A stretch of DNA of 64,000 bases, taken from the NCBI GenBank assembly GCA_030765065.1, contig CM060985.1, forward strand, positions 178,066,096 through 178,130,095. The letters run 5' to 3'. This DNA is from Deroplatys truncata (Eukaryota > Arthropoda > Insecta > Mantodea > Mantidae). Shown here piece after piece: positions 1,420-57,700 of this stretch; position 1 is the first letter of the stretch, and every line of letters starts with the position of its first letter. A model generated the notes under the pieces. That model made no database searches and was not told the DNA's origin. It was given only the letters and a program-made list of their open reading frames with translations. A program made the position numbers and the translations under genes.

Positions 1420-2250
1420 TTACTTTCTCTGCTACGTATAGTAAGTAGGGGAAGTATTGTATTCCACTCAAAAATTCGATACCGAGATTTCACCGGAAAT
1501 ATACGTTTTGAGACCCCCTGAATCCAAAAAAGGCATTTTTAGAAACGTCCGTGTGTGTCTCTGTGTCTGTAACAGCATAACTCAGAAACGAACAGTCGGA
1601 TAAACACCAAACTTGGTATTTAGATTCAGTATCTTCCACAGATGCGACACAAAGGTTTTCAAGAAAATCCCACCACCCCAGATTACCCTTTACATGGAAC
1701 ATTTTTCAAAAATTTTAATTTTTCAAAAATGGCTCTAACGAGTTTGATTAAAATATCATATGTTTAAGGTATTCTCATGACAAATGAAATGTACATCTTG
1801 AATTTTCTGGGAACGTCTCCAAAACTATTCTTCATTGTATACGACTTTTGCATAGCTGGTAACCCATAAGAGATAGACAAAGTTTTAGTACACAAGAAAT
1901 GTAGATAGCGTTAGAATACACAATTTATGTCATATACATTATTTTTGTTGGGTGAACCATTTTTGATATATTGCTTGTTATTCCCTTAAATTTTCCAATA
2001 GTTATACTTTTTCTCAAATTCGTTATTCAGTTTTTTTGTCCTGGTAATACAAAGAGAATGGAATACTCCACATAGCAACCACCTCTTAAAATATTTGACT
2101 ATCGCTTAAAGCCTAGCAATTCCCCTTGCATCTACAGGAAAATTAGCAATAAGATTAACATCTCGATTAACATGAAGCATATGGAGAATAAGCGTTTGTA
2201 AAAATAGTTTCTACAAGAGTAGAGAAATTCATGTGAGTGTAACACGTAAT
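1420..2250 (+). mobile_element. family H copy 1 (HINE-like), near full length
   Basis: Defines the family H plan used below. Plus orientation means starting with ACTTTCTCTACTACG and ending GTGTAACACATCAGAT. In order: terminal ACTTTCTCTACT; a short palindrome TACTATACGTAGTA (here slightly changed); a conserved block with CGATACCGAGATTTCACCGG; a variable GT/CA microsatellite; AACAGCATAACTCAGAAACG; about 600 bp of AT-rich body; the inverse AGTAGAGAAAGT; hairpin ATGTG-N7-CACAT; end. This copy lies in a T-run (TTTTT before the start). Coding capacity is doubtful; a 70-codon antisense frame at 1490-1702 recurs in other copies. Confidence 0.85.
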
Positions 2251-2254
2251 TTTT

Positions 2255-3975
2255 TTTATCTACATGTGATGCAACCAAAGCCATAAAGGTTTTTAATGTT
2301 AAACGTATAGGCCGGACATTATTTTCTGAGATATGACCTTTACTCCTCACATAATGCTCAATTCTCTGACCGGTATATATCCTCGAGCTGGCAATCATTT
2401 TACAAAGCTTGGACAAAGTCTCTTTCTGGATTGATTTTTTTATCTTATAGCTGTACCATACACAGAATGAAAGGGGTATACATGCTCACAGCTTAAGGGG
2501 TTGATTCTACATGATATACTGAATAAAATATTGCAATGACGTCCTTTCCTCTCAGCAATAGACACACTGTGAAAAGACTTTATAGTTGGAAGCTCATCCT
2601 GCAATTATTCTGTGATGCTTTTGAATATCATAACACCCTTTAGGCGGTGGATATATTGAAACAAATCGAACAGATCGTTCCTCTGCATAACGTTTTTGTA
2701 AAGTTCACTGGATTCACGAAATTTACCATTGAATTTTTCACACAATCGTAACTTTCGTTTGGAGTGCACCTGGTAAAGGGATGCTGTATTTTTGCCTCCA
2801 GTCGTACAACCTAATGCGGGTTAACCTTTAACTTTTACAGAAATTGGGAAAGAAAAGCTATTTTTTGGAACAAACTGCTTTATTGCTTTTCAAAATTTTT
2901 GCCTTTAAGCTACATGCACTTTTGCGCGCGTTCAAACTAATTCTCGGAACATCATTTTCCACTCTGAATAGATATTTCAGTGTTATAAAATGTATTATGA
3001 CTTACAAGTGAATATTATTAAATGTAATTCAGTAAATAGAGCTATGAAAGGACATACTGAGAAATAAATGAAGAAAAAAGTTTAATTGAGACTGCATAAT
3101 TTAATAGCAAAATTAATATTACTACATGGAAGTGAGAGATGAGTGTTATAAACAGGAACAGTGACTTTGGAAATGTGATTTCTGAGACCATTGACCGGAA
3201 TAACGCTCCAAAATAAAGTTAAGTGCACACATAAGGAAGGAATTGGCTATTACATCAATAAGGCCAGAAGAAACTATACAATATTGTGACGTGAGCCTGG
3301 TGACGACACCATCAGCACCTTCACCAGATGTCACGAAAAGGATGGGGAAACATAGCACAGAATGACCTCGTGATGGTGACAGGTTTCGACAGCAATAGCG
3401 AAGGTGCTATTATAAGACACGTAGCTTCTGTTCCCGATCTTTCGAACATTTAATTTATCTAATACAACCTAAACTACATTTCATAGAGAAAGAATTAAAC
3501 AGCTGGTGCATTTACCTGTGTGGTAAAGGAAGTCCGGCTGTCCGTTTTCGTCGGGCCAGCGCCTACGTAGGGATTCCAAATTAACACTAAATGAATGGAA
3601 GAAACTGAAAAGCAAAGCTTCCGGCTAGGCACGTGGTTGTTCGAGAGAGCACCATAAAAAACCCTAAGGTTAAATACCTGACGAAATGCTGATTAGTATC
3701 TCCCTAGTCACTGGCGTAAGCGTACGTCAACAGAAATTACATAACTCAACCATGTGTCGGATCAAACCGCGTGCCACCTAAACTCTGCTTGCTTTAACAT
3801 CAGGGAAAAGACGTGCAGGAAAGTTAAAACCAATTTCATGGAGTTACTTAAAGTTTTCCTGAATATATCAAACGTATACCATCATATTCTCCAATATCTT
3901 TTAAAATAACAATAATATCAAGAAAATAGATACAGCCATGTTGGGTCATCACCCTGATAGATAACCAAAGCAATC
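2255..3975. other. no gene recognised
   Basis: About 1.7 kb of mixed-composition DNA. Open frames at 2132-2416 and 3146-3358 on the minus strand show no known domain; the first overlaps the end of a family H copy. Around 2840-2960 the sequence looks like a degraded transposon 3' region, but I cannot name a family. Confidence 0.4.
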
Positions 3976-3979
3976 CTTT

Positions 3980-5690
3980 GTATATCGACCTATAGTAAGC
4001 AGAAGTATTGTAGGCTACCCGAAAGTTCGATACAGAGATTTCGTGTAAATAAATAATTTGGGTCTCCTTAATCCAAGAGTATTTCTGGAAAACGTTCAGT
4101 GTATTTGTGTTTGTCTGTCTGTGAACAGCATAACTCAAAAACGATAAGTCTGATAAATACCAAATTCGGTATTTGAGATTAGTATCTTCCAAGGATGCGA
4201 CACGAAGATCTGCAAAAAAATCCCCCACTCCAGACTACCCTTTAAATGGAACTTTTCGAAAATTTCGATTTTCTCAAATATGGCCCTAACGATTTTGATG
4301 AAATATCATATTTTTAGCTATTTTATGGCAAATGAGATGCATACATTAAACTTTCTGGAAATGTGCCTAAAACTCCTCTTCATTCTTGAATGACCTTCGC
4401 ATAACTGGTAAAACGTAAGGGATAGATGCCGTTAAAGCACACACTTTGTGCCATATGCAGTCTTTTGTTCAGTGGCCATTTCCGAGATATTCCTTGTTGT
4501 TTGTTTAAGGGGAGGCAAAATTTCAAAGAAATCTATTAATAACTGCATTTTGAACATCAAAAAATGTAGAAAAACAAAAAGTGAAGAAAAATTACTTTAA
4601 AGCTTTAAATGTATAACAACACATATTTATTGATTTAGAATTCCCCTGAACCATATGAAGGTCTTTGAGATAACTGTTTTTATATAAGAACCCTTAGGTC
4701 TGTCTTCATATTTTGACCAGTTCTGACACCCATTTTCTTCATAACCTTAAGCCTACCTTTTTTTATTTTTTTTTAAATTTAAAAGTGTAAAATGCATATC
4801 TGCATCCAATTGAAACCCGTCAGCATCCAACCATGCCGTCACACCGCTTGCTTTAGTTGGGCCCTCCACATCCTTTACCACAGTTTCAATTGAATGCAGA
4901 ATATGCATTTTACCGGGTTTCGATCTTACGATCCTTGGTTTGATAGGTTAGCTACTTCTATCGTGCCATAGACCGCATGGCCATAAATCCTGATGTCGAG
5001 CTTGCGCCGCCATATTTAAAGCGTTTACTAATCGTGTAACATACCATGTTATATATAACATTTTAAAGCTGAGTTGTACAAAAATAGGCGTGGCAGGCAT
5101 TTAAATTTCCGTGCATGGTTTTTAAAAACGCCTGCCAAACCCTTAAAAAAGGTTTTTAACACCATCAATCACATTTAAATGTTTGACTAACATTATAAAG
5201 GGTTTATTTTTGCAGACATCAAAAAACTGAAAATGTTGGCCATTTTGACTAATAAATCTCTTCCAGGTCCCCTTAAACTTCAAAATTGTATCGATTTTGC
5301 TGCAACGGAGTAATGAGTGCATTTCAGGAGCCACACCCACCCGCACATGGGCATTTAAATCAGGATGTAACTGCCTTTTAAATGGTGATGCGGCATAAAC
5401 TACAATAGATTCTGAAAGTACAAAGTATAAACATTATTTTAAGGCAAAAAACGTAAAATCGATTTTTCATAATTTTTGCCCCAATTTCACCGATGCCTCC
5501 CCTTATAATTTCTAATACTTATACTTTTTCTCGAATGGGAATTCATTATTCGTTTTTTATGTCATGGACATACAAAGGTAATGGAACGCTCCACATAGCA
5601 ACCTGGTCTTAAAACATTTGACTATCGCTTAAATACTACCATATTACCCTTGCATCTACAAGAAAATTAGCAATAAGATAGTTTCTGCAA
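3980..5690 (+). mobile_element. family H copy 2, interrupted by a 1-kb inverted-repeat element
   Basis: Family H sequence runs from about 3980 to 4508 and resumes at 5513 (CTAATACTTATACTTTTTCTC) to about 5690, in plus orientation. The two parts join in register with other copies once the insert at 4510-5512 is removed. The copy is among the more diverged; its 3' hairpin end is missing. Confidence 0.75.
4510..5512. mobile_element. non-autonomous DNA transposon with AGGGGAGGCA ends, TA target
   Basis: The left end reads AGGGGAGGCAAAATTTC and the right end is its imperfect inverse (GATGCCTCCCCT). TA flanks both sides and family H sequence is continuous across the insertion. Inside, a second inverted repeat of about 28 bp (AAAATGCATATCTGCATCCA at 4792 and its inverse at 4883-4912) encloses a GC-richer 70-bp core with CACATCCTTTACCACAG. 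No transposase is visible; a 67-codon minus frame at 5143-5346 is unrecognised. The ends are not those of a family I can name. Confidence 0.65.
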
Positions 5691-5824
5691 ATGTGGCCAA
5701 GAAAAAAAATGGGAGAAAAGTATAAATATTTTAACTTTCAAACCAAATAGCAAAGAATATCTATTAAATGTTTAGCTTCACAAAAAAATAAAAGAAGCAA
5801 GAAAAAACAATTATTTAATACAAA

Positions 5825-6165
5825 TTCTGTGATTTCATTAGATCTACATCTTTTGTGTAGTACGTTTGTCTATCTGTTACGCTGTAGAATTATAGAAACA
5901 TTAATTTAAAAAAATAAAATTTCTCAGCCTATTTCCAGAGAATTCAAGATAAACATTTCCTTTGTCATGCATATATTTTGGACATAACGTATTTTAATGA
6001 AAATGTTGGTCATTTTTATAAGGTAAGGAATAAGGAATTTTCCATTTAGAGGGTAGTTTGGGGTGGCAGGATTTTCTTGAAAGTCCTGGTGTCGAATCCT
6101 TGGAAGATACTGCACCTGAATAGCAAAATTGGTGTTTATACGACAATCGTTTCATTTTTTAAGGT
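5825..6165 (-). mobile_element. family H copy 3, partial
   Basis: The inner part of family H in minus orientation, from TACATCTTTTGTGTAGT to about the GGTGTTTATACGAC block. Both ends are missing and it is heavily diverged. Confidence 0.65.
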
Positions 6166-6239
6166 ATTCATCGTTTCATCATTTTAGGGTAGATTTAATT
6201 TGACCCTAATTGTAGGTTACCATTTCTAAAAAATTAAAT

Positions 6240-6690: not shown

Positions 6691-6694
6691 TAGG

Positions 6695-9159: not shown

Positions 9160-9912
9160 ACTTTCTCTACCACGTACACAAAAATGGGGAAGATATTGCA
9201 TTCCACTAAAGAATCTATACAGAAATTGTACCGGAAATACATGTTTTGAGGGCCTCTGAATAAAAACATTTTAGAAAGAGGTTCGTGTGTATTTGTGAAC
9301 AGCATAACCTAAAAACAAAAAGTCGGATAAATATCAAACTTGGTATTTCAGTTTAGTATCTTTGAAGGATGCAAAACTGAGATTATAAAGAAAATTCCCC
9401 TCCCCAGACTATCGTTTACATACAACATTTTACAAAATTTTTGACTTTCCCAAAACTGGCTGTAATTATTTTGATTAAAATATATGTCCTAAAATATTTT
9501 CTTGGGAAATGAAATGTAAATCCTGAATTGTCTGGACGTGACCACAAAAGTGCGCTTCATTGTAAATGACTTTCGCATAACTGGTAAACCGTAAGAGATA
9601 GATACATTTTTACCACAGAAAAACTTTTATCTTTTTAAAACACACAATTTATGTCTTATATATTTTTTTTGTCGAGGACACATTTCCGAGATATTCCTTG
9701 TTATTTGTTTGAATTTTCCAATACTTATACTTTTTCTCAAATTGGAATCCGTTATTCGTTTTTTTATGTCCAGGACATGGAATGGAGTGCACCACATAGC
9801 AACCAGCTCTTGAAACATTTGACTATCACTTAACCTGAAGTAGATGGAGAATAAGCGTTTGGACAAATAGTTTGTACAAGAGTAGAGAAAGTCATGTGAG
9901 TGGGACACTTTT
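9160..9912 (+). mobile_element. family H copy 4
   Basis: Starts ACTTTCTCTACCACG and ends GTACAAGAGTAGAGAAAGTC followed by the hairpin region. The GT microsatellite is reduced to a few units. Near complete but diverged. Confidence 0.8.
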
Positions 9913-13792: not shown

Positions 13793-14652
13793 TTCTTTAC
13801 AGCTCTTGGTGTTTCACAAGGCACATCAAATTGGGGGGTATTGAGGGAGGTGGGATGTTATGAAGACACAATACACTGTAAAATAAGAGCAGTGAAGTAC
13901 TGGCTGAGGCTGATGCAGGGGGATAACTCCACACTACGATCCAAATGTTATAAATACCAGCGAGAAAACCTGTCTCCTAAGTTTTGGGCAGCCGATTTGG
14001 AAAGGGGTTTGAGGAGAATAGGAATGGGGTCAGTATGGCAAAGAGCTGAAACAAATGACAAAAACATATGGAAAGATGTCCAAGAAGACTAAGAGACATC
14101 AACCAACAGGAAATAGAATCGGATTGTAAAATTGAGCCTTCCTTAAATCCAGCAAATGAAATAAAATTGACTTCGGATAAACAGGCATATATACTAAACT
14201 TAGAAAGAAAGGAAATATCAGGAATGGCATGGTTTAGCCTGGAGGGCACAGAAAATGACTGACGATTCTGGCAGGAGAATCTGCCCATTCTGTGATTTGG
14301 ATAAGGACTGGGTACATATTTTGGCGGAATGTGCACAGTGGGAGAACCAGCGAACAATTAAACTCAAAGAAAAATTCTTAAGTCCGTCAAGAAAAATATT
14401 GGCATGTTGGGAGCTACTGGTTGACCAGATAAACCGACAAAACATGGGAAATTTCTTGCGAATTAGTGCGCGAATATGGATCAAATTTGTTCAGTTAGAC
14501 AAAGGTAATGTATCTCCATTTTCCTTTTTGTTGTTTTTTTCTGTTATTTACTGTCACCATACCTGTATCTTAAATATACATGTACGGTCAACGATCCATG
14601 CACTAAATTCTTGTGTAATAACTTCAATAGCCAATAAAGATAGTTTATCGAT
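13793..14652 (+). mobile_element. LINE 3' fragment, family T copy 1 (TATC tail)
   Basis: The C-terminal part of a non-LTR pol: LGVSQGTSNWGVLREVGCYE, KYWLRLMQGDNSTLR, then the zinc-knuckle-like CPFCDLDKDWVHILAECAQW (14281-14340). The 3' UTR ends at AATAAAGATAGTTTATCGATC. Homologous ends lie at 32036 and 37115. It is inserted in the minus-strand LINE between the WVKMF and GVSQGS coding segments. RT domain absent: the copy is 5' truncated, as usual for LINEs. Confidence 0.85.
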
Positions 14653-15185: not shown

Positions 15186-15312
15186 TCCTTTTATGCAATT
15201 AATCCCTGAAACAATTGTTACATGTGACCAAAATTGGGTGTATCACCGCAAGCCTGACACCTCCAAACAGTGGTTCGATACCCGTCAGCCTGTAAAAGTT
15301 GTCTTTAAAAAA
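15186..15312 (+). mobile_element. mariner, piece 2 of 3 (first catalytic aspartate)
   Basis: Encodes IVTCDQNWVYHRKPD then TSKQWFDTRQPVKVVFKK, the mariner segment around the first catalytic D. It follows the HTH piece at 10617-11037 in family order and is followed in order by the piece at 17583. The right edge at 15312 is an A-run where family H copy 5 is inserted. Confidence 0.85.
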
Positions 15313-16156
15313 ATCTGATGTGTTACACTCACATGACTTTCCCTACTCTTGTACAAACTATTTTTACAAACGCTTATTCTCCATATGCTTCATGTTAATC
15401 AAGATGTTAATCTTATTGCTAATTTTCTTGTAGATGCAAGGGGAATATGGTAGGCTTTAAGCAATAGTCAAATATATTAAAAGCTGCTTGCTATGTGGAG
15501 TATTCCATTCTCTTTGCATTACCACGACAAAAAAACTGAATAACGAATTCCCATTTGAGAAAAAGTATAAATATTGTAAAATTTAAGGGAATAACAAGCA
15601 ATATCTTGAAAATGGTTCACTCAACAACAAAAAATGTTTATGACATAAATTGCGTATTTTAACGCGATCTACATTTTTTGTGTAGTAAACTTTTGTCTAT
15701 CTCTTATGCTTTACCAGTTATGCAAAAGTCGTTCACAATGAAGAATACTTTTGGTGACATTCCCAGAAAATTCAAGATACACATTTTATTTTTCGTGAAA
15801 ATATCTTAAACATATGATATTTTAATCAAAATCGTTAGAGCCATTTTTGAGAAAATTAAAATTTTCGAAAAATGTTCCATGCAAAGGGTAATCTGTGGTC
15901 GGGGGATTTTCTTGAGATTATTCGTGTCGCATCTATGGAAGATACTGAACATAAATACCAAGTTTGGTGTTTATCCGACTGTTCGTCTCTGAGCTATTTT
16001 GCTCAAAGTCACACACACACACACGGACATGTTTCCAAAAATGCTTTTTTGGGATTCAGAGTGTCTCAAAAATATGTAATTCCGGTGAAATCTCGGTATC
16101 GAATTTTTTAGTGGAATGCAATACTTCCCCTACTTACTATACGTAGTAGAGAAAGT
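15313..16156 (-). mobile_element. family H copy 5, full length
   Basis: 844 bp from ATCTGATGTGTTACACTCAC to GTAGTAGAGAAAGT, flanked by A on both sides (T/T in element orientation). It contains the CA tract at 16010-16023 and the recurrent 79-codon frame at 15872-16111 starting MFHAKGNLWSGDF. It is inserted in the mariner immediately after the VVFKK codons. Confidence 0.9.
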
Positions 16157-16161: not shown

Positions 16162-17582
16162 ATCTGATGTGTTACACTCACATGACTTTCTCTGCTCTTG
16201 TACAAACTATTTTTACAAACGCTTATTCTCCATATGCTTCATGTTAATCGAGATGTTAATCTTATTGCTAATTTTCTTGTAGGTGCAAGGGGAATATGGT
16301 AGGCTTTAAGCGATAGTCAAATATTTTAGGAACTGGTTGCTATGTGGCGCATATCATTCTCTTTGTATGTCGAGGACATAAAAAATCAATAACGAATTCT
16401 CATTTGAGAAAACGTATAAGTATTGGATAGTTTAAGGGAATAAGAAGCAATATCTCGAAAATGGTTCGCTCAACAAAAAAATGTATGTGACATAAATTGT
16501 GTATTTTAACGCGATCTAAATTTTTTGTGTAGTAAAATGTTGTCTATCTCTTATGGTTTACCAGTTATACAAAAGTCTTTCACAGACACACATACGGACA
16601 TGTTTCCAAAAGTGGTTTTTATTACTTTCTCTACTACGTATACTAAGTAGGGGAAGTATTGCATTCCACCCAAAAATTCGATACCGAGATTTCACCGGAA
16701 ATATATGTTTTGAGATCTCCTGAATCCAAAAAAGCATTTTTGGAAACATGTCCGTGTGTGTGTGTGTGTGTGTGTGTGTCGGTGAACAGCATAACTCAAA
16801 AACGAACAGTCGGATAAGCACCAAACTTGGTATTTAGGTTCAGTATCTTCCAGATATGCGACACGAAGGTTTTCAAGAAAATCCCCCGAATCCAGACTAC
16901 CCTTTACATGGAAAATTTTTCGAAAATGTTAATTTTCTCAAAAATGGCTCTAAGGATTTTCATGAAAATATCATATGTTTAAGATAATGTCATGAAAAAT
17001 GAAATGTATGTCTCGAATTTTCTGGAAATGTCTCCAAAAGTATTCTTCATTGTGAACGCCTTTTGCATAACTGGTAAACCATAAGAGATAGACAAAATTT
17101 TACTACACAAAAATGTAGATCGCTTTAAAATACACAACTTATGTCATATACATTTCTTTTGTTGAGTGAACCGTTTTCGAGATATTGCTTGTTATTTCCT
17201 TAAATTTTCCAATACTTATACTTTTTCTCAAATACGTTATTCATTTTTTTATGTCCTGACATGCAAAGAGAATGGAATGCGCCACATGGCAACCAGCGTT
17301 AAAATATTTGACTATCGCTTAAAAGCTACCATATTTCCCTTGCATCTACAAGAAAATGAGCAATAAGATTGACATCTCGATATCTCGATTAACATGAAGC
17401 ATATGGAGAATAGGCGTTTGTAAAATTAGATTGTACAAGAGTAGAGAAAGTCATGTGAGTGTAACACGTCAGATTTTTTTACTTAGTGTGTCTCAAAACA
17501 TGTATTTCCGGTGAAATCTCGGTATCGAGTTTTTGGGTGGAATACAATACTTGCTCTACTTACTATACGTAGTAGAGAAAGT
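16162..17582 (-). mobile_element. family H copy 6, split by copy 7
   Basis: The part from ATCTGATGTG to 16621 and the terminal part 17481-17582 (GTGTCTCAAAACATG to AGTAGAGAAAGT) are in register with other copies once copy 7 is removed. The left part also has an internal deletion that removes most of the coding-like block around 16585. The right end abuts mariner piece 3. Confidence 0.85.
16624..17474 (+). mobile_element. family H copy 7, full length, nested in copy 6
   Basis: 851 bp from ACTTTCTCTACTACG to GTGTAACACGTCAGAT, bounded by T on both sides. Because it lies inside a known sequence (copy 6), it fixes both ends of the family. It shows the 12-bp terminal repeat at 16624 and its inverse at about 17440, followed by the hairpin ATGTG-N7-CACGT. 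Confidence 0.92.
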
Positions 17583-18660: not shown

Positions 18661-19508
18661 AATCTGATGTGTTGCACTTATATATGACTTTCTCTACTCT
18701 CGTACAAACATATTTTTACAAACGCTTATTCTCCATCTACTTCATGTTAATCAAGATAAAAATTTGTAGAAACTATCTTATTGGTAATTTTCTTATAGAT
18801 GCAAGGGGAATATGGTAGGCTTTAAGTGATAGTCAAATGTTATAAGAGCTGGTTGCTACGTGAATCATTCCATTCTCTTTGCATGTCCACGACATAAAAC
18901 AACGAATAACGAATTCTCATTTGAGAAAAAGTATAATTATTGGAAAATTCAAACAAATAACCATGATTATCTCGGAAATGGATCACTCGACAAAAAAGAT
19001 GTATATGACATACACTGTGTATTTTAACGAGATCTACATTTTGCAAGTTGTAAAACTTTGTGTAACTCTTATGGTTTACCAGTTGTGCAAAATCCATTCA
19101 GAATGAATGGGGGCATTCCCAGAAAATTCTTTATATACATTTCATTTGCCATGGAAATAAACATATGATACTTTAAGCAAAATCGTTAGGACCATTTTTG
19201 AGAAAATAAATTTTTTTGTAAACTGTTCAATGTATAGGTTAGTCTGGAGTGTTGGGATTTTGTTGAAAATGTTAGTGTCGCACGTTTAAAAGATGATGAA
19301 CCTAAATATTAAGTTTGGTATTTACTCGACTTTCGTTTTTGAGTTATACTACTCACAGACATACAAACAGACACATGGAAGTTTTTATAAAAATTATTTT
19401 TATTTTTGGATTCGGGGCCCCTCATAACATGCATTTCCGGTGTAATCTCGGTATCGAATTTTTGGGTGGAATGCAATACTTCCCCTACTTCCTATACGTA
19501 GAGAAAGT
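18661..19508 (-). mobile_element. family H copy 8, full length
   Basis: 848 bp from ATCTGATGTGTTGCACTTAT to GTAGAGAAAGT. A on both outer sides. The hairpin partner GTGCAAC is changed in this copy. Diverged but complete. Confidence 0.88.
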
Positions 19509-20055: not shown

Positions 20056-22345
20056 AGCTTATAGGCCTAATACCTAAGATAACTTACTGTTATAACTTTC
20101 TATCTGATAAATGATTCGCTAAGACAGGGCATATTTCCACACTGCTTAAAAATCCGCATTGTTACACCGATACACAAAAAAGGCTACAAAAGGAGTATGC
20201 GAAACTATAGACCAATGCATCACACTCCTGTAACTGCAAAATTAATTTAAAAACACCAATGGAAAGAATCAACGCTTTTTTAGAAAAACAATGTTCTCAG
20301 TGACCTTCAACATCGTTTTCGGGCTAAAAGATCAACAATCACTGCGCTGGTAGATTTTGCCCACAATAACGTAAGCAATTTGGATGACAAAAGCAAAGTT
20401 TCCACTATATTCTCGACTTATCTAAGGCGTTCGATTGTGTCCAACATCATATACTGCTATTAATATTAGAAAATTATGGAATTAGTGGGGTTGCTAACAG
20501 ATTAATCTCATCATATCTAAAAGGGCGAATACAATACTCAAAATAAGTTTTAAACAAGAAATTAACACAACAAAATTTGAATCTGTCGCACAAATTGTAA
20601 AACATAGTGTACCACAGGGCTCAGTGCTAGGCCCTTAACTTTTTATACTTTACATAAATGACGTGTATGCTTCAGAAAAATGTAAAATTATAAGTTATAC
20701 TGATGACACCACTACTATGTGTAACGCAAATAATACCTGTGACCTTCAGTCACTAGCTACCAAGGACTCGCTTAGGATAGATAACTTTTCAAAACCTTAA
20801 GCCTCGTGAACAACACTGAAAGGACTAATATAATTAAATTTGAACTAAAAAATCTGATGTGTTACACTCACATGACTTTCTCTACTCTTGTACAAACTAT
20901 TTTTACAAACGCTTATTCTCCATATGCTTCATATTAATCAAGATGTTAATCTTATTACTAATTTTCTTGTAGATGCAAGGGGAATTGCTAAGCTTTAAGC
21001 TACAGTCAAATATTTTAAGAGCTGGTTGCTATGTGGAGTATTCCCTTCTCTTTGCATTACCAGGACAAAAAAAATGAATAACAAATTTGATTAAAGTACA
21101 AATATTGGAAAATTTAAGGGAATAACAAGCAATATATCGAAAATGGCTCACTCAACAAAACAAATGCTATGACATAAATTGTGTACTTTAACGCGATCTA
21201 CATTTCTTGTGTAGTAAAATTGTGTCTATCTCGTATGGTTTACCAGCTATGCAAAAGTCGTTCACAATGAAGAATACTTTTGGAGACATTCCCGAAAATT
21301 CGAGATATACATTTCATTTGTCATGTAAATATCTTAAACATATGATATTTTAATCAAAATCCTTAGAGCCGTTTTTGAGAAAATTAAAATTTTCGAAAAA
21401 TGTTCCATGTAAAGGGTAGTATGGGGTGGGGGGGTTTCTTGAAAACCTTTGTGTCGCATCTCTGCAAGATACTGAACCTAAATAACAAGTTTGGTGTTAA
21501 GCCACCATTTGTTTGTGAGTTATGCTGACACACAGACACACACGGACATGTTTCCAAAAATACTTTTGTTTTTGATTCAGGAGGTCTCAAAACATGTATT
21601 TCCGGTGAAATCTCGGTATCGAATTTTTGTGTGGAATACAATACTTCCCCTACTTACTATACGTAGCAGAGAAAGTAAAAATTAGTAAAGGCCTGTACCT
21701 GTTGAGAGAGTTTGCAAAAATATGTAATAGGAATATTTTCAAAGCTATATACTTTGACTTAATTTATTCGCACATTCAATATGTCATAGAAGTATGGGGT
21801 GGCTGTAGTAATACATTCATCTAGAGGCTTATAGTACTCCAAAAGATATGTACCAGAATAATGTTCAAAATGGGAAAACATGATTCATGTAAGGAAGCCT
21901 TCAAAAAAGGAAAACTGTTTTATTCTAGTTTCTTTGTACATATATAAAGTAATCTGTCTGACGGAACCGCACAAACCTAAAACAAATAGTGAAATACATG
22001 CCTACAACACAAGGTGTAAATTGGACTTGCACCAAAATAGTTATATTTTAAAATCTATAAACAAAGATCTCTTTATATTTTGTTTATATATGCACAGCTC
22101 GACTACCAACTGAAGTAAAATGTGAAACCAGCAGCTTTAGATTTAAACAAACAGAGTGTAAAGAGATATCGTTTATACAATCCTGTAAGATTTTCTTCTT
22201 TGTACTTGACAATTCTTGAAAGAGTCTGTATACAATATTCATACTTTCAACACGTATATTTTCTAAACTGTAATTATATTTTTATCTTTGTACTTGAAAA
22301 TGCTTGAAACTTATAATTGAGTCTATGGGCAATAAACAACAACAG
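20056..22345 (+). mobile_element. LINE (Jockey/CR1-like) RT and C-terminus, split by family H copy 9
   Basis: RT motifs in order on the plus strand: LKIRIVTPIHKKG and RNYRP (20150-20210), FRAKRSTITALVDFAHNN (20310-20370), a KAFDCVQHHIL-type block (20430), VPQGSVLGP (20610), and SYTDDTTTMC, where the usual ADD is TDD (20690-20720). After the family H insert (20852-21676) it resumes with SKGLYLLREFAKICNRNIFK, IYSHIQYVIEVWGGCSN and an IMFKMGKHDSCKEAF block, and ends near GGGCAATAAACAACAACAG. Many frame changes. The 5' half with endonuclease is absent. Confidence 0.85.
20852..21676 (-). mobile_element. family H copy 9, full length, inserted in a LINE
   Basis: 825 bp from ATCTGATGTGTTACACTCAC to GTAGCAGAGAAAGT, A-runs on both outer sides. 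LINE coding sequence continues in family order across it. Confidence 0.9.
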
Positions 22346-22604
22346 TGCACTTATAAAAGCCTAAATGTACACACAGGTGAAAATTTAACAAAATTCTTCA
22401 AAACGTTTACGTTTACTTATAGATCTATTGCAGCAAAACCTGCATAGAATTACAATTGAGCAATAATTTGAAATAAAACTGTTATATGCATATGACATTC
22501 TCCACCCTCTTTTGCTTTTAGTGTGTATACAAATATTCTCACAAGATATAATTTTTCCTCGTCATTAAAATGAAGATAGGCCTTTCCGAAAATAGCTATG
22601 GATT

Positions 22605-22704
22605 AGGACACTTCAAAACATGTATTTATGGTGAAATCTCGGTATATTAAATTTTTGGGTGGAATGCAATACTTCTCCTAGTTACTATACGTAGTAAAGA
22701 AGGT
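22605..22704 (-). mobile_element. family H terminal fragment
   Basis: About 100 bp of the plus-end terminus in minus orientation, ending TACTATACGTAGTAAAGAAG. The rest is missing. Confidence 0.75.
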
Positions 22705-31893: not shown

Positions 31894-32036
31894 ACTTTCT
31901 CTACTATGTGCATAGTAGGTAGAGAAGGTATTGAATTTCACCCAAAAGTTTGTTACCTAGATTTCACCGAAAATACCTATCTAGAGGAACCCTGAATAAC
32001 AAAAAAAATTAGAAGTAGCCCATATCTGTGTGTGAA
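31894..32036 (+). mobile_element. family H terminal fragment
   Basis: ACTTTCTCTACTATG followed by the TTTCACCGAAAATAC block and a short GTGTGTG tract, then cut at 32036 by LINE family T sequence. Confidence 0.8.
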
Positions 32037-33800: not shown

Positions 33801-34498
33801 AATAAAAACGGAGAGTCGGCCAAATACCAAACTATGTATTTAGGTTCAGTAGGGTCCTTCCAAACATTTTCCAAAAAATCCTCACATTCTCAAACTCCCA
33901 TTTACGTGGAAGATTTTTCGAAATATATGATTTTCAAAAAGATAGATCCAATGATTTTATTGATATATAGCATATAAAATATATTTCATGGCAAATAAAA
34001 TGTACATCTTGCTTTTCTGAAAACAGCCTGTAAAATCCTGTTGGTTCGGAAGAAATTTTGTATAATTCTGTTAAAACTATAAATGTTAAGCATTAGCCGA
34101 CAACATACTCCACAAAAAATGTAGATCTCTTAAAAATGCACAATTTATTTAAAAAATTTTATGTGGCAAAAGTAATTTCTGATATATCCGTTATGAAAGG
34201 CTGGAAGTGTTGATTTGTTGCTTATTCCCTTCAAGTCCTGCCAACGTTTAGTTATTTCTCGCGATACCATGGAAAAGTGTGGAATTTTAAGGCCAGCGTA
34301 TAGCGTCCAGGTCTTAAACATTTAAGTTTGCTGTTCTCTTTATATATAATGAAATGTGTAACGTAGCTATTTCAGTAAAGGCTTATTTAGATTAAAATGT
34401 GGTAGATAGAAAAATAAGTTTTATTAAAAGTTGTGTGTATAACCACTATTAAACGATAGAGTGTAGAGTAACTCATGTGAATGTAACACACAAAACAT
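33800..34498 (+). mobile_element. family H, divergent subfamily, copy 10
   Basis: Aligns in order with family H from the AACGGAGAGTCGGCC block to GTAGAGTAACTCATGTGAAT and GTAACACA, but with many changes. The plus end is missing, lost at the junction with the mariner. Subfamily mates: 35311-36050, 36060-36745, 57575-57700. Confidence 0.65.
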
Positions 34499-35310: not shown

Positions 35311-36050
35311 ATGTGATGTGAAACATTCACTCTCCATTCTTTATTAGTGGGAACACAAATTATTCTTACTCCAGCTGCATTTAAATCCAAACAAACCTTT
35401 CCAGAAACAGCTACATTACACATTTCGTTATAGATACAAAGGGAACAGCGATAGTCAAATGTTTAACAACTGGGCGCTATATGCTGCCTTAAAATTCCAT
35501 ACTGTTTCCATGACATTGCGAGAAACAACTGAATGTTGAAAGGAGTTTAAGAGAATGAACAATTCGAACCTTAAATAACACATATCTCAGAAACGGCTTA
35601 TGCCACAAAAAACTTATTTTGAAATACATTGTGTGCTTTAAAGAGATCTAAATGTTTTATATGGTACGTTATCGTCCATCGTTTAACGTTTACCAGTTAT
35701 ACAAGATTATACAAAATTCCCTCCAAATGAAAGGTACTTCATAGGGTATTTCCCGAAAATTCAAGATATACATTTTATCTGTTGTATAAATATCTTTAAT
35801 ATATGGTATTTTGGTTAAAATCCTTAGAGCCGTTTTGTAGGAAATAGAAGATTTCGAAAAGTGGTTCATGCAAAAACTAGCTTAGGGTGCAGGAATTTTC
35901 TTAAAAATCTTCCTGGCACATCTTTAAAATATATTGAAAATAAATACCAAGATTGGTATGTACCTGACCTTTGTTTTTTGAGTTATATTGTTCACAGGCA
36001 GATGAACAGACACACTCCACATATTCACATCACTTTCTTTGCCATCTATC
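35311..36050 (-). mobile_element. family H, divergent subfamily, copy 11
   Basis: Begins ATGTGATGTGAAACATTCAC, the diverged 3' end, and runs to the CACAGGCAGATGAACAGACA block. It contains the recurrent antisense frame as 35861-36055 (MVHAKTSLGCRNF). The plus terminus is lost. Confidence 0.7.
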
Positions 36051-36059: not shown

Positions 36060-36745
36060 TATGCACATTATTCATATTAAAACTTATTTTTCTACTATAT
36101 TTAATCCAAATAAATCTGTACAGAAGTAGGTGCATTACACATTTCGTTATAGATACAAAGAGAACAGCGATAGTCAAATGTTTAACAACTGGAAGCTATA
36201 TGCTGGCCTTAAAATTCCATACTGTTTGTACGCGAGAAACATCTGAATGTAGACAGAAGTTTGAAACAATAACCATTATAAGGCATACCTTAGAAATGGC
36301 TTATACCACAAAAAAGGTTATTTGACATAAACGATATGTGTTAAAAAGATCTACAACTTTTGTGTGGTATGTTTTCGTATATCGCTTGAAGCTTAGCAGT
36401 TATACAATATTATGCAAAATTCCTTTCGAATGAAGACTATTCCCAGAAAGTTCAAGAGAACTATGCATTTTATTTTTCATTTAAATATCTTTCATATACG
36501 ATATTTTATTCAAAATCGTTACGCCATTTTTAGAAAATCAAAGATTACGAAAAATCTTCCATGTAAAGGGTAGTTTGAGGTGGAAGGATTTTCCTGAAAA
36601 TCTTTGTCTCATCTTTGGAAGCTGCCACAGACACACACAGGTCATGGCTCTAAAAGTGTCTTTTTGGGTTCTGGGTGCCTCAAAACATGTATTTCCGGTG
36701 AAATCTCGGTAGAATTTTTGAGTGGAGTGCAGTACCATCTCTATC
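36060..36745 (-). mobile_element. family H, divergent subfamily, copy 12
   Basis: Directly follows copy 11 in the same orientation and shares its subfamily bases (ACACATTTCGTTATAGATAC, ACAACTGGAAGCTATATGCT). Ends near GTATTTCCGGTGAAATCTCG and AGTGGAGTGCAGTACC. Probably a tandem insertion or local duplication. Confidence 0.7.
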
Positions 36746-40295: not shown

Positions 40296-40623
40296 TCTGA
40301 TGTGTTACACTCACATGACTTTCTCTACCCTTGTTAAACTATTTTTACAAACTCTTATTCTCCATCTATTTCATATTAATCGAGATAAACATTTGCAGAA
40401 ACGATCTTTTGACATGCAAAGAGAATAACTTTTTACACATAGCGACCAGTTCTAAAAATATTTGACTATCGCTTAAAGCCTACTATGTTCCCCTTGTTTT
40501 GTATTTACAAGGGCAATATAGAAATACAGAAGCCTTTAAGCATATACATATCTCTTAATAGCTTGTTGCTAGGTGCAGCAGCATTCTTTTGCCACAGATT
40601 AATACTCTTTGCATATCCAAGAA
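40296..40623 (-). mobile_element. family H partial copy 13
   Basis: The 3' end TCTGATGTGTTACACTCACA to CTTTGCATATCCAAG. It shares with copy 16 (46200-46310) a subfamily segment with AAGGGCAATATAGAAA and AGGTGCAGCAGCATTC not found in other copies. Confidence 0.8.
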
Positions 40624-40845
40624 AATCTGATGTGGTACACTCACATGATTTTCTATACTTTGTACAAACTATTTTAAGAAACTCTTATTCTCCATGTGCT
40701 TCATGTTAATCGAGATGTAAATCTTATTGCTAATTTTCTTGCAGATGCAAGGGGAATATGGTCGTATTTAAGTGAGAGTCAAATCTTTTAATAGCTGGTT
40801 GCTGTGTGGGGCACTTCATTCTCTTTGTATTTCCAGGACATAAAA
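40624..40845 (-). mobile_element. family H partial copy 14
   Basis: Another 3' end, ATCTGATGTGGTACACTCAC, inserted directly at the CAAGA position of copy 13; stops at TTTCCAGGACATAAAAAA. Confidence 0.75.
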
Positions 40846-41576
40846 AATCTGGTGTTACTCTCACACGACTTTTTCTACTCTTGTGTGTGTCTGTGTCTTT
40901 GAATAGCATAACTCAGAAACGAACAGTTGGATAAACACCAAACTTGGTATTTAGGTTCAGTATCTTCCAAAGATGCAACACGAAGGTTTTCAAGAAAATC
41001 CCCCCACCCCAGATTACCCTTTACATGGAACATTTTTAGAAAATTTTAATTTTCTCATAAAGGCTGTAAAGATTTTGATTAAAATTCCATATGTTTAAGA
41101 GATTTTCATGACAAATAAAATGTATATCTTGAGTTTTTTGGGAATGTTTCCAAAAATATTCTTCATTGTAAAGGACTTTGGCATAACTGGTAAACCATAA
41201 GAGATAGACAAAGTTTTACTACACAATAAATGTAGCTCGCGTTAAGATACATAATTTATGTCATATACATTTTTTTTGTTAAATGAACCATTTTCGAGAT
41301 ATTGCTTGTTATTGCCTTAACTTTTCCAACACTTATACTTTTTCTCAAATATGTTATTCATTTTTTGTCCTAGTAATGCAAAGAAAGTGGAATACTCCAA
41401 ATAGTAACCAGCTCTTAAAATATTTGACTATATGAATTTCCCTTGCATCTACAAGAAAATTAGCAATTAGATTATCATCTCATATCTCGATTAACATGAA
41501 GCATATGGAGAATAAGCGTTTGTAAAAATAGTTTGTACAAGAGTAGAGAAAGTGATGTGAGTGTAACACATCAGAT
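40846..41576 (+). mobile_element. family H rearranged copy 15 with inverted 3' ends
   Basis: The left 40 bp (CTGGTGTTACTCTCACACGA, TTTTTCTACTCTTG) is a 3' end in minus orientation, joined directly to the microsatellite and body in plus orientation (GTGTGTCTGTG, GAATAGCATAACTCAGAAAC) and a normal plus 3' end at 41576. Both ends are therefore the same terminus, inverted; the usual plus terminus is missing. Confidence 0.75.
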
Positions 41577-42048
41577 TATTTGTAATATATATGTTTCGTT
41601 TTACGTAGGTTAACTTCGTATAACTCAGTTCCCTACTATGCTTATTTGTGATATTTCACAATTTAAAATCAATATATCTGCTGCTCTTGTTGCTTTGCAA
41701 AAAAAATATTAGTAGAAGGTATAAAGTATTCAAAGAAAATGTTATTTTCTCTCCTATAAACCTTATTTATTAAACTGCTCTCTTCACAGAGTATAATTTT
41801 GCTTTGTATCCCGTCGTGATATGCTTTTGAAGCTTCTCGCCAGGTGGAATGTTATGCATTTACAATTAAATACTCCATCTAGATTGCGTATCTAGTTACC
41901 ACATTTTTGTTGCACCAGTTTAACGCGTTCTTGGAAATACTCTATAGCTCGGCAGCCCTCGCTGTGCTATAACCTTGCTCGTTAAGGCCTATAATTTTCG
42001 GTTTGTTGTCCATATCCTTTGTTCCTTGAAAATCACATACAGGTTTTT
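41577..42048. other. no gene recognised
   Basis: AT-rich DNA without recognised repeats. Confidence 0.4.
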
Positions 42049-44640: not shown

Positions 44641-44788
44641 ATCTGATGTGTTACACTCAATTACTTTTCTCTACTCTTTTTTTTTGGATTCAGGAAGCCT
44701 CAAAACATGTATTTCCGGTGAAATATCGGTAACAAATTTTTGGGTGCAATGCAATAATTCCCCTATTACTATACGTAGTACAGAAGGT
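44641..44788 (-). mobile_element. family H miniature, 148 bp, both ends kept
   Basis: ATCTGATGTGTTACACTCAA ... TTTTCTCTACTC is joined directly to TTTTGGATTCAGGAAGCCTC and runs to ACTATACGTAGTACAGAAGG. About 700 bp of body is deleted while both termini remain. Confidence 0.8.
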
Positions 44789-44789: not shown

Positions 44790-45348
44790 AAAAAAAAAGC
44801 ATAACGAATTCACATTTGAGAAAAAGTATTAGTATTGAAAAATTTAAGGGAATAACAAGCAATATCTCGAAAATGGTTCACTAAACAAAAAAAATGTTGT
44901 CTATCTCTTATGGTTTACCAGTAATGCAAAAGACGTTCACAATGAAGAATACGTTTGGAGACATTCCCAGAAAATTCAAGATATACATTTTATTTGTCAT
45001 GAAAGTATCTTAAATATATGATATTTTAATTAAAATCGTTAGAGCTATTTCTGAGAAAGTTAAAATTTTCGAAAAATGTTCCATGTAAAGGGTAATCTGG
45101 GGTGGTAGGATTTTCTTGAAAACCTTCGTGTCGCATCTCTGGAAGATACTGAACCTAAATACCAAGTTTGGTGTTTATCCGCCTGTTCGTTTCTGAGTTA
45201 TGCTGTTCAGACGCACACACGGACATGTTTCCAAAATTACTTTTTTTATTCGGGGGCCTCAAAACATATATTTCCGGTGAAATCTCGGTATCGAATTTTT
45301 GGGTGGAATACAATACTTCCCCTACTTACTATACGTAGTAGAGAAAGT
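44790..45348 (-). mobile_element. family H partial copy
   Basis: Starts inside the body (AACGAATTCACATTTGAGAA) and ends with a complete plus terminus, TACTATACGTAGTAGAGAAA. It directly follows the miniature in the same orientation. Confidence 0.82.
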
Positions 45349-45510: not shown

Positions 45511-46456
45511 ACCTTCTCTACTACGTATAGTAAGTAGGGGAAGTATTGTATTCCACCCAAAAATTCGATACCGAGATTTCACCGGAAATACATGTTTTGA
45601 GACCCCCTGAATCCAAAAAAAGCATTTTTGGAAACATGTCCGTGTGTGTGTCTGTGTGTCTGTATGTCTGTGTGTCTGTATGTCTGTGTGTCTGTGTGTC
45701 TGTGAGTGTGTCTGTGAACAGCATAACTCAGAAACGAACAGTCGGATAAACACCAAACTTGGTATTTGGGTTCAGTATCTTCCAAGGATGCGACACGAAG
45801 GTTTTCAAGAAAATCCCCCCACCGCAGAGTACCCTTTACATGGAAGATTTTTCGAAAATTTTAATTTTCTCAAAAATGGCTCTAACGATTTTGATTAAAA
45901 TATCATATGTTTAAGATATTTTTATGACAAATAAAGTGTATATCTTGAATTTTCTGGGAATGTCTCCAAAAGTATTCTTTAGTGTGAACGACTTTTGCAT
46001 AACTGGTAAACCATAAGAGATAGACAAAATTTTACTACACAAAAAATGTAGATCGCGTTACAATACACAATTTATGTCATACATTTTTTTTGTTGATTGA
46101 ACCATTTTCGAGATATTGCTTGTTATTCCCTTAAATTTTTCAATACTTATTTTCTCAAATGGGAATTCGTTATTCATTTTTTTGTCTTGGATATGCAAAG
46201 AGTTATAATCTGTGGCAAAGGGAATGGTGCTGCACCTAGCAACCAGCTATTAAGAGATATGTATGTGCTTAAAGGCTACTGTTTTTCTATATTGCCCTTG
46301 TAAATATATTTTCCCCTACATCTACAAGAAAATTAGCAATAAGATAAGAGTCTGCAAATGTTTATCTCGATTAACATGAAGTAGGTGGAGAATAAGCGTT
46401 TGTAAAAATACTTTGTACAAGAGTAGAGAAAGTCATGTGAGTGTAACACATCAGAT
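45511..46456 (+). mobile_element. family H copy 16, full length, 946 bp
   Basis: From ACCTTCTCTACTACGTATAG to GTGTAACACATCAGAT. The GT/CT microsatellite is longest here (45643-45715), and a subfamily segment at 46200-46310 adds length. T on both outer sides. Overlapping frames on both strands arise from the microsatellite and the recurrent antisense frame (45579-45785). Confidence 0.9.
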
Positions 46457-46460
46457 TTTT

Positions 46461-46809
46461 ACTTTCTCTACTACCTATAGTAACTAGGGGATGTGCTGTA
46501 TTCCATCCAAAAATTCGATACCGAGGATTTCACAGGAAATACATGTTTTGAGGCCCCCTGAATCGAAAATAAAAGCATTTTTGGAAACATTTCCTTGTGT
46601 GTCTGTAAACAGCATAACTCAGAAACGAACTGTCGGATAAACACCAAACTTGGTATTTAGGTTCAGTATCTTTCAGAGATGCGACACGAAGGTTTTCAAG
46701 AAAATCCCCATACCCCATATTACCCTTTACATGGAACACTTTTCGAAAATTTTAATTGTCTTTAATTATACAGGAGTAGAGAAATTCATGTGAGTGTAAC
46801 ACATCAGAT
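46461..46809 (+). mobile_element. family H internally deleted copy 17, 349 bp
   Basis: Starts ACTTTCTCTACTACC only four T bases after copy 16, keeps the first 290 bp including the antisense frame (46530-46739), then jumps to the 3' end CAGGAGTAGAGAAATTCATG and TAACACATCAGAT. Confidence 0.88.
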
Positions 46810-46814
46810 TTTTT

Positions 46815-46980
46815 ATAATTGACCAACAGTGAAAGATGGACAATATCTGACTACACAAAAATTGTATATCTCGTTAAAGCACACAATTTATGTCAAATAT
46901 ACCTTTTTGTGGCGTTAAGGGATTCCGAGATATTCTTTGTTATTGGTTTGAATTTTCAAATAAGAATACCTTTTTGAAGC
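46815..46980 (+). mobile_element. family H old fragment
   Basis: Body words ACTACACAAAAATTGTATAT, CACAATTTATGTCA and CCGAGATATTC in plus order; no ends. Confidence 0.6.
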
Positions 46981-52020: not shown

Positions 52021-52022
52021 TA

Positions 52023-52619
52023 TATCATATATGGTAGGCTTTAAGCGATAGTCAAATGCTTTAAGAGCTGGTTGGTATGTAGAGCATTGCGTTCTCTTTG
52101 TATGTCCAAGACATATAAAAACGAATAACGAATTTTCATTTGAGAAAAAGTATAAATATTGGAAAACTGAAACAAATAACAAGGAATATCTCGGATATGG
52201 ATCACTCCACAAAAATGTATATGATATAAATTGTGTATTTTAACGTAATCTACATTTTGTCTACCAAATTTTGTACCCTTACGGTTTACCACGTATACAA
52301 AGGTCATTCAGAGTGAAGAGGACTTTCGGGGACATTCCCAGAAAATTCATGATATGCATTTCGTTTTCCATGAAAATATCTGAAACATAAGATATTTTTA
52401 TCAAAATATTTGAAAAATTCTGAACATAAATTTCAAGTAGGTATTTTCCAACTTTTAATTTTCGTGTTATTCTGTTCACAGACACACACGAACCGTTTTT
52501 AGAAAACGTCTTTTTTCATTCAGGGCACTTCAAAAGATGTATTTCCGGTGAAATCTCGGTATCGAATTTTTGGGTGTAATGCAACACTTCCCCTACTTAC
52601 TATACGTAGTAGAGAAAGT
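52023..52619 (-). mobile_element. family H copy 18, 3' part missing
   Basis: From TATGGTAGGCTTTAAGCGAT to TACTATACGTAGTAGAGAAA, minus orientation. It abuts the Harbinger-like coding fragment at 52620, which stops at the FRNRKHY codons. Confidence 0.85.
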
Positions 52620-54606: not shown

Positions 54607-54862
54607 CTATACTCATAGATAACTCAAATATTTGGACGGTTATTGCAGTGTAGTTTATCTCGGCTTACCACTCAAACATGCAAATTCTGCTGTCGGTGGT
54701 TCACTTCTTTCTCGCGTGCACAGAATGCACAAAATGTCCTACACCGCCGCAGTACATCAACCCGTTTACAAGACGGAAACAAGTTCGAGGTTCAGTTCCT
54801 TTGAGACAATGGGCTCGTTGAACTAATAATGAAGTCATTAATTTAAACCGACTGGCATTAAA

Positions 54863-55884: not shown

Positions 55885-56632
55885 CAGGAGGCCCCCTGAA
55901 CCAAAAGAAACGTATTTTTAGAAACATCTCCACGCGTGTGTCTTTTTGTGTATGTGATAATTGTAAATAAATGAAGCCAGATAAATGCCAAACTGGATAT
56001 TTAAGTTCAGTATCTTCCAAGAATGCAACATAAAGAATTTAAAGAAAATATCCCCACCCAAAAATTAGCTTTAAAGAAAACACGTAGATGATACTTTTTC
56101 AAAAATCACCATCGATTTTAATTCGAATAGTATATACGAGGGTTGGAACTTAAATAGTGGCAACTATTTATTAACAGCCTATACAAAAGAGTTACATGTT
56201 AGCAACCTTTACTGCCCTTCAATGTAGTCACCAGCGTTGTGTATAACCCGTTGCCAGCGATGTGGAAGTCGTAGTATACCTTTAGCAGAGCTTGTTCTGT
56301 TGATAGTGCGAATGAGAGGTCTACTGCCTGTCGAATCTCTGGAGCAGTTCCGAAGCGAATGCCACGAAGTGGTTCCTTCATCTTCGGAATCAAATCAAAG
56401 TCACAAGGACTTTAGTCCGGGGAGTATGGTGGATGGTACAGCACTACCCAGTCCCATCGACCGAACAAATCAGGCACAGCTTGTTGCTGTACAACAACAT
56501 ACAATTGTAGTTATTTTTGCTAGTTTCTGCAAATGTTTATGTCGATTAACATGAAGTAGATGGAGAATAATTGTTTGTAAAAATAGTTTGTACGAGAGTA
56601 GAGAAAGTCATAAGAGTGTAATACATCAGATT
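55885..56632 (+). mobile_element. family H copy 19, interrupted by a mariner
   Basis: 55885-56142 matches the region from the GGCCCCCTGAA block to the GATTTTAATTCGAATAGTATAT block; 56510-56632 is the 3' end (GCAAATGTTTATGTCGATTA to GTAATACATCAGAT). About 400 bp of body between these points is missing, lost together with one end of the inserted mariner. Confidence 0.78.
56145..56508 (-). mobile_element. mariner 3' fragment inserted in family H
   Basis: Left TIR TACGAGGGTTGGAACTTAAA preceded by TA. Minus strand: HPPYSPD, SPCDFDLIPKMKEPLRGIRF (third catalytic D in the first word pair) and, across a shift, LPHRWQRVIHN-AGDYIEGQ. Related to, but not the same family as, the mariner at 23374. The 5' two thirds are absent. 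Confidence 0.85.
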
Positions 56633-56639
56633 TCTAAAA

Positions 56640-57574
56640 ATAGGAAACCACATTTTGTTTGTTGCTTCCTCATTGGAAAATGATTTATAAAATGCTGTTT
56701 ATTTTGTGATGAATAAAGAAACAAAACAAAAAATGTTGGTTTCAAATTACGAAACGTAACTTGACCCTCAAATGACCATCCATGGATGGTCCAAATATTC
56801 ATTGCGTTCTTCGTACACAGACATTCAGAATTTTCGTTGTTATTTACGTTGGTGTAAAAGCAATTGCAAAGTGTTTTATATAAATGTTGTATACTTTTAT
56901 GAGTGAGAAAACAACACAAAAAGGTAGGTTTACATTGAAAAAATTAAATTGGCAATAATATGACTATCACCACTTCCTTCAAATAAAACATGACTAATGG
57001 CATTTACTTTCCCACATAATATCAAGCAACTTTTATTAAAGACATTACTTTCTACAAATATTAGTTTTGGAGATATTGTACAGTCTCAACTTAAATGGTT
57101 CAACCTGTATATTGTACTGGATACCAATAAGTTGCATTGACGGATAACGGTAGATAATATTAAATATAGAATAAATAGTTTACTTAGTGATTATTAGCTG
57201 GTTTTCAGTTACTTCTTTCTGCTGTCCTCCACCGGCTGTTAATTAATTAAAACATGTTTAGGTGTTACTAATCTTCTGATTTATTTTACATTTATAAACT
57301 AATTTTGCTTTGCTTTCTTTCTAGTTATAAGTGAAATCTATAAAACGATAATTGAAATGACATGTTTTTGGATAATTTGGAATAAAGTATAGAGGTTTGC
57401 CACGGACGTCTCGGATAGGAAACCCAGTAACGGAACGGAATATTTCACAATTTTCATATTTATACATCTTATTTGTTTTGTTTCTCCCGATAATGGAAAG
57501 AGTATTTAGCATTGCGGCCACCGTTTAAGCATTTGTTTGTCGCGATCTTTTTATCTGTAACGAAATATGTAATT
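56640..57574. repeat. no gene; repeat shared with 6240-6405 at 56945-57110
   Basis: Apart from the 165-bp repeat, which ends TTAAATGGTTCAACCTGTAT, the region is AT-rich with no recognised frame. Confidence 0.5.
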
Positions 57575-57700
57575 AGCTATTTCTGCAAACGTTTATCGCG
57601 ATTAAAATAACAAACACAGAGAAATAAGCTCGCGTAGAAATACTTTGCATGCACAGTAATAAACAATAGAGAGGCAGAAAGTCATGTGAAATTAAAATAA
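57575..57700 (+). mobile_element. family H 3' end, divergent subfamily
   Basis: TTTCTGCAAACGTTTATCGC, GAGAAATAAGCTCGCGTAG and GAGGCAGAAAGTCATGTGAA match the last 120 bp of family H with many differences. Confidence 0.6.

Follow-up and report, generated by a model that had tools for sequence, protein, structure and literature searches.

The 64,000-base stretch of Deroplatys truncata contig CM060985.1 analysed here (hereafter the window) is rich in copies of a repeat, family H, which is most probably a HINE: a non-coding element of ~0.85 kb that would be moved in trans by a ~9.7-kb Helentron of the same genome (probability about 0.94). The Helentron starts with the 5′ end of H and stops in the hairpin end of H, and paralogous empty sites back both boundaries. 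An earlier note on this DNA had read H as a HINE- or DINE-1-like element mobilised by a Helentron, and this reading is now supported by a partner with the same ends that carries the Rep motif RGSPHEH, a PIF1 helicase and an AP endonuclease.

Family H ends in ACTTTC and CACATCAGA, with Ts on both flanks, and its 12-bp inverted repeats are asymmetric, as the earlier note had proposed. ACTTTCTCTACT is terminal at the 5′ end, and AGTAGAGAAAGT lies 23 bp inside the 3′ end, followed by the hairpin sequence ATGTG-N7-CACAT and by CAGAT. Helentrons and HINEs are characterised by identical repeats of 11 bp or more near both ends, the 3′ one internal to a palindrome, a plan that H shares with its 12-bp repeat. 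A second inverted copy of the 5′ repeat, recognized by eye, occupies H positions 23–34 with two mismatches against the repeat at 1–12, and this 5′ pair folds better than shuffled sequences (z = −3.58; 2 of 200 shuffles equal it). The + strand of the window holds five exact copies of ACTTTCTCTACT and nine of AGTAGAGAAAGT (14 and 13 if one mismatch is tolerated), together with eight exact copies of ATGTG-N7-CACAT. More than 20 copies or fragments on both strands had been reported; we find 30 H-related stretches of at least 60 bases, 14 on the + and 16 on the − strand, and H-related sequence amounts to 12,484 of the 64,000 bases (19.5%). The variable GT microsatellite described near one end is likewise seen in the window copies. 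Alignment of six of these over ~0.8 kb gives mutual identities of 79.6–91.2%. The five copies used as references begin with the 5′ repeat and end in CAGAT; all depart slightly from the motif as written, examples being ACCTTCTCTACT at 45511, CACGTCAGAT in copy 16624 and, in copy 18661, a shorter 5′ repeat. Beside the common tail type (ATGTCCTGGACATGCAAAG...) a longer one (GTCTTGGATATGCAAAG...) occurs at loci L136, L137, L146 and L154 and in the window copy at 45511–46457, so that two or more 3′ subtypes of H exist.

Genome-wide counts were made on an assembly of 4.29 Gb in 818 contigs, where the exact 24-base 5′ end of H occurs 157,374 times and the exact 28-base 3′ end 125,220 times, with no match for either reversed control. 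Pairing of AGTAGAGAAAGT with ATGTG within the next 30 bases is not a product of chance, as 238,124 genome matches compare with 37 for the reversed control. The dinucleotide TT precedes 153,444 of the exact 5′ ends (97.5%) and follows 117,605 of the exact 3′ ends (93.9%), which extends to the whole genome the claim that insertions have T on both sides. The window contains four exact 24-mers and four exact 28-mers, against 2.3 and 1.9 expected from the genome average; its H coverage of ~20% is therefore above average, and by extrapolation family H would make up about a tenth of the genome. Contig C1 has near its start (G000:C1, ~20–123 kb; L001–L008) a tandem array whose ~3.4-kb unit contains one H copy, so that H has been multiplied here within a satellite.

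Candidate partners were sought with the Helitron_like_N profile, which gave at least 152 matches in the genome; 150 of 291 candidates were scored. No Rep/helicase match fell in the window among these 150, a separate whole-window scan not having been made. Rep motif 2 was read at 30 loci, ten with long open reading frames (ORFs) and 20 others. All ten long-ORF loci carry RGSPHEH, in agreement with RGSPHxH, with S between G and P, given as the Helentron form of this motif in PMC4067079. The C5 element, on the minus strand, has an open frame of 2,372 amino acids which, scanned as two halves, matches Herpes_teg_N, DUF6570, Helitron_like_N and PIF1; in its N-terminal half (L040) Herpes_teg_N (37.4 bits) and DUF6570 precede Rep. 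In the C4 copy the frame extends into a C-terminal Exo_endo_phos_2 domain, an AP-type endonuclease (E = 5.3e-6). The ~9.7-kb Helentron is thus predicted to encode domains of a herpes-tegument-type protease, Rep, PIF1 helicase and AP-type endonuclease. Among the 20 other loci (L009–L028), ten matched the motif pattern, all as RGLPHAH, the Helitron form according to PMC4067079, and ten matched nothing; stops lie within the matched domain of this canonical Helitron-type Rep in 16 of the 20.

The ends of H and of the Helentron were compared in both end regions of ten further long-ORF loci, excluding the C5 element with its rearranged 5′ side. H positions 818–851 are present at 91% in all ten 3′ regions, and the exact 5′ terminus ACTTTCTCTACTACGTATAGTAAG follows a T-run at nine of the ten loci. 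These nine 5′ regions contain H up to position 650 at 84–90%, then reversed H 719–445, then H 325–521; the tenth locus, C8, has a different 5′ region that lacks the first H piece (to 650) but has the later ones. The longer Rep/helicase element with the ends of H for which the earlier note had proposed a search is therefore this ~9.7-kb Helentron, the autonomous partner, with a Rep, a PIF1 helicase and an AP endonuclease at the C terminus. A simple Helentron insertion was found among the nine, at C10:96133183-96142877. Its joined flanks are 86–90% identical to uninterrupted paralogs (33 of 40 scored rows, from 1,721 candidates, cover the site), and in the ten paralogs fetched the T-run is continuous without the 9.7-kb element; both Helentron boundaries are supported by these paralogous empty sites. 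The exact Helentron-type 3′ end was counted 47 times in the genome. H and the Helentron have 11 bp of the repeat in common, by which the rule of PMC4067079 would place them, on the copies compared, in one family.

At eight of the ten loci, positions 1–624 of an outer H stand directly before the inner Helentron 5′ end. The outer H 5′ ends of these composites follow a T-run and have flanks that differ between loci. The eight outer halves are 98.1–99.8% alike (median 98.9%, 28 pairs), compared with 79.6–91.2% among the six window copies, so one composite, consisting of an outer H 5′ half and a whole Helentron, spread as a unit to at least eight loci. On the 3′ side, we read C4a, C1, C9, C4c and C5b as ending in the inner hairpin and C10b, C13 and C4b as continuing into an H tail; the calls for C4a, C1, C9, C4c and C10b come directly from the flanks, and those for C5b, C13 and C4b are less certain because H tails were counted against the interrupted target H. 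Two of 32 autonomous 3′ ends have no recognisable inner end, and among the other 30 a same-orientation H tail comes next in 12 and not in 18. A mix of stops and run-on is predicted if rolling-circle copying begins at the outer 5′ end and halts either at the first terminator or, when termination is bypassed, at a later one. PMC4067079 names bypass of termination and transposition of composites for Helitrons and anticipates both here, so the process is known in outline, and this genome offers a clear natural case. The idea that the H tails behind inner Helentron ends all represent one original outer half was rejected, since most of them show differences of a few per cent from locus to locus. Two of the tails have a 100% match in the tail of an ordinary H dimer at another place; together with the differences between loci, this suggests that the tails were probably acquired separately, and they would fit read-through into whichever H the element had entered.

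The insertion rule was derived from four insertions with paralogous empty sites. At C1_8158 the empty site reads T5 followed by CTTAATGG in nine of ten paralogs, and the filled site CCC-T5-[ACTT..CAGA]-T5-CTTAATGG. The simple Helentron has an empty site of T7 in five of ten paralogs (5, 6 or 8 Ts in three, an interrupted run in two) and a filled site CC-T5-[..CAGA]-T7-AGACGG. The remaining two, which are less clean, with differences from the paralogs next to or inside the T-run, are C1_14390 (empty GTTTTAC in five of seven paralogs; filled GTTTT-[..CAGA]-T6-GTAATG) and C1_350 (empty GTATCTTTTAAATCC in nine of ten; filled GTA-T6-[..CAGA]-T8-AAATCC). For A_C10b, A_C9, C1_14296 and A_C1 no empty site was found among 40 scored rows, A_C9 and C1_14296 having been searched in a single query whose rows were all occupied by two other sites. 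Filled sites carry ~4–8 more Ts than empty ones, ~5 being commonest. The earlier statement that there is no clear target duplication stands for non-T bases, which are duplicated at none of the four sites, but it has to be amended by this regular gain of ~5 Ts.

T-run lengths at the most used site, which lies inside H itself, place the gain on one side. Outside the C1 tandem array the uninterrupted run has 7 or 8 Ts in 53 of 70 listed places. To the left of the filled site exactly five Ts are found in 79 of 100 listed places, and to its right the match length is that of CAGA plus T7 in 51 and of CAGA plus T8 in 18 of 100 listed matches; all these places are on one chromosome and some are non-independent. 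Together with the four paralogous sites, these lengths indicate that insertion gains ~5 Ts on the 5′ side, the T-run on the 3′ side having the length of the target run. In PMC4067079 the Ts at insertions are read as carried by the element, and the split of flanking Ts between the two ends is left unclear. One odd junction was noticed at C1:762350-763600 (L087, L088), where no T-run precedes the 5′ end of the H copy at L087.

This favoured site is the T-run at H position 625, where we counted 17,526 exact same-orientation H insertions beside 35,843 uninterrupted exact sites. Extrapolation from one window gives ~3.0 million T-runs of at least 7 in the genome; H-625 sites make up less than 2% of these, yet they hold ~11% of exact H 5′ ends, a share slightly inflated because the nested count used 20 bases of the 5′ end and the total count 24. 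Amplified dimers must account for part of the excess. Junctions were sampled as 20 of the first 31 listed, omitting five outer chain junctions and six skipped without a rule. The H tail follows the inner end directly in 14 of the 20 and is absent in three, three others being unjudgeable. Plain nesting therefore dominates, and the possibility that the 17,526 junctions are mostly composites with lost tails was rejected on the same 14 of 20. We also rejected the argument that 17,526 exact 5′ against 8,036 exact 3′ junctions prove early termination, since motif decay and the second tail type confound this comparison.

A sequence of events that would account for these features can be outlined. Rep would nick the T/ACTTTC junction at the 5′ end, the helicase would displace one strand, and copying would be stopped by the subterminal 3′ repeat together with the hairpin. 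The copy would then enter a T-run, which the endonuclease may have opened; ~5 Ts would stand before ACTTTC, and the whole target T-run would follow CAGA. For an element inside an H copy, copying could begin at the outer H 5′ end and end at the first or a later hairpin, giving rise to composites. Tentatively, and at less than even odds, we go further and suggest that H carries its own landing pad. The run of 7–8 Ts at position 625 would gather both H and the Helentron, nested H would supply alternative start and stop signals, and the Helentron would repeatedly gain new ends from its own parasite; insertion would be asymmetric, with a ~5-T block on the 5′ side and CAGA joined to the first target T.

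Inverted repeats near both ends and a regular gain of ~5 Ts could also be expected of a miniature inverted-repeat transposable element (MITE) with ordinary terminal repeats that a DDE transposase moves with a TTTTT target duplication, and the window does contain a Tc1-like transposase remnant, to which no link from H was made. We regard this origin as very improbable. The inverted repeats of H do not occupy both extreme ends, the 3′ one lying 23 bp inside; the partner that shares both ends is a Helentron, no search aimed at DDE families having been made; and composites that run from an outer 5′ end to an inner 3′ end are not predicted by cut-and-paste. Derivation from a canonical Helitron, with movement by the RGLPHAH-type Helitrons of this genome, has in its favour that this Rep form was read at half of the 20 other loci. 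Canonical Helitrons have a 5′ TC and a 3′ CTRR and insert between A and T. H has neither the TC start nor the CTRR end, inserts in T-runs, and matches in its ends the RGSPHEH Helentrons, so this origin too is highly unlikely; both were rejected on the anatomy of H and the Helentron partner found. One might finally suppose that the apparent partner is an unrelated element merely sitting inside common H copies, given that one H T-run is a frequent landing site and that an H 5′ half precedes eight of the ten Helentron loci. There is very little to recommend this, because the inner element itself has the H 5′ end and the H hairpin, including in the simple copy whose empty-site flanks rejoin.

Several observations nevertheless count against H as a HINE moved by this Helentron. 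The 3′ end of H folds no better than shuffled sequences (z = −0.04; 87 of 200 equal it), and neither does the 3′ hairpin of the Helentron (z = −0.38). The Exo_endo_phos_2 match, at 26.7 bits, is slightly below the Pfam cut-off of 27.4. The last 60 bp agree at 38 of 60 positions in both copies compared, which by the rule of PMC4067079 would assign H and the Helentron copies read to different subfamilies, and an H-specific part near 720–817 was not seen in those copies; H is therefore no simple deletion of them. The H-like 5′ parts of the Helentron are near-identical between loci and the window H copies differ by ~10%; the Helentron copies are thus young beside these H copies, and older relatives may account for most of the H expansion. 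The ~5-T gain, moreover, could be read as a target duplication, as a homopolymer hides the difference between element-borne and copied Ts.

H copies and fragments in the window
Feature	Position	Strand	Remark
H copy, intact 5′ end	1422..2247	+	3′ hairpin end lost
H fragment	3985..4501	+	
H fragment	5500..5694	+	
H fragment	5798..6153	-	
Diverged H copy	9160..9908	+	
Near-complete H copy (HINE)	15312..16156	-	
3′ half of H copy	16162..16584	-	interrupted by + copy 16624-17475
Near-complete H copy	16624..17475	+	inserted in T-run of minus-strand H copy
5′ part of minus-strand H copy	17474..17582	-	interrupted by 16624-17475
Divergent H copy	18661..19508	-	~81% to other window copies
Near-complete H copy	20851..21676	-	
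H 5′-end fragment	22583..22704	-	
H 5′-end fragment	31894..32011	+	
H fragment	33804..34164	+	
H fragment	35447..36015	-	
H fragments	36261..36735	-	36261-36621 + 36626-36735
H 3′-end fragment	40296..40408	-	
H fragment	40410..40496	+	
H 3′-end fragment	40502..40848	-	
H copy without 5′ part	40882..41577	+	
H 5′-end fragment	44676..44788	-	
5′ part of H copy	44790..45348	-	
Near-complete H copy	45511..46457	+	GT/GTC tract expanded, longer tail type
Second H copy, 5′ part	46461..46761	+	head to tail behind 45511-46457; 3′ end at 46765-46814
H fragment	46834..46974	+	
H copy, internal deletion	52029..52619	-	52029-52407 + 52409-52619
H fragment	55888..56135	+	
H 3′-end fragment	56521..56632	+	

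Some of the fragments in the table are halves of interrupted copies, as with the two minus-strand pieces that flank the + copy at 16624. Between the two copies arranged head to tail (46456–46461), exactly five Ts separate the CAGA of one from the ACTTTC of the next. The window also holds other repeats. A satellite with a 43-bp unit and an 88-bp higher period (128 copies, 94% match) occupies 58377–64000 and continues past the window end; the Tc1-like transposase remnant, at 11165–12204, is broken into several open frames; and similar open-frame sets at 13793–14671 and 31996–32780, which share LREVGCYEDTIHCKIRA, appear by eye to be copies of one retrotransposon-like repeat.

A literature search returned no title describing family H, which at title level is a weak negative. 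The family is new and its kind, the HINE, is known; the interest lies in the scale and in the composites. This genome, in which exact ends exceed 100,000 and long autonomous frames run to dozens, beside many paralogous empty sites and composites apparently started at an outer end and stopped at an inner one, makes the choice of start, stop and target readable statistically, and biochemical studies of Helentron transposition are described as still needed in PMC4067079. The case also illustrates that a non-autonomous element can come to occupy much of a giant genome, against only those 47 exact Helentron 3′ ends.

Among known systems, HINE-Mo and HINE-Cq with their Helentrons, as described in PMC4067079, resemble H in having repeats near both ends, of which the 3′ one lies deeper, a 3′ palindrome, a microsatellite in some copies, T-rich targets, and a partner with Rep, PIF1 helicase and AP endonuclease that the HINEs far outnumber. 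In contrast to theirs, which begins 2–4 bases in, the 5′ repeat of H stands at the terminus, directly after the Ts; H further differs in its more than 100,000 exact ends, its dense self-nesting at one site and a T gain assignable to the 5′ side. Like H, Drosophila DINE-1 (PMC4067079) and Cg_HINE from the Pacific oyster (PMC7492417) have a 5′ repeat with a second inverted copy, a microsatellite, a 3′ repeat with a palindrome and T-rich insertion sites, but Cg_HINEs contain a central satellite-like tandem array that is absent from the aligned window copies of H. For the autonomous partner, the closest parallel is provided by the VTD-containing Helentrons of PMC9741609, whose hosts include insects and which, like the Helentron described here, combine a herpes-tegument-type protease with Rep, helicase and AP endonuclease in one protein. 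The same source reports active deubiquitinases of the herpes-tegument protease kind in zebrafish Helitrons; in the Helentron described here the protease is predicted from a domain match, and DUF6570 is also present.

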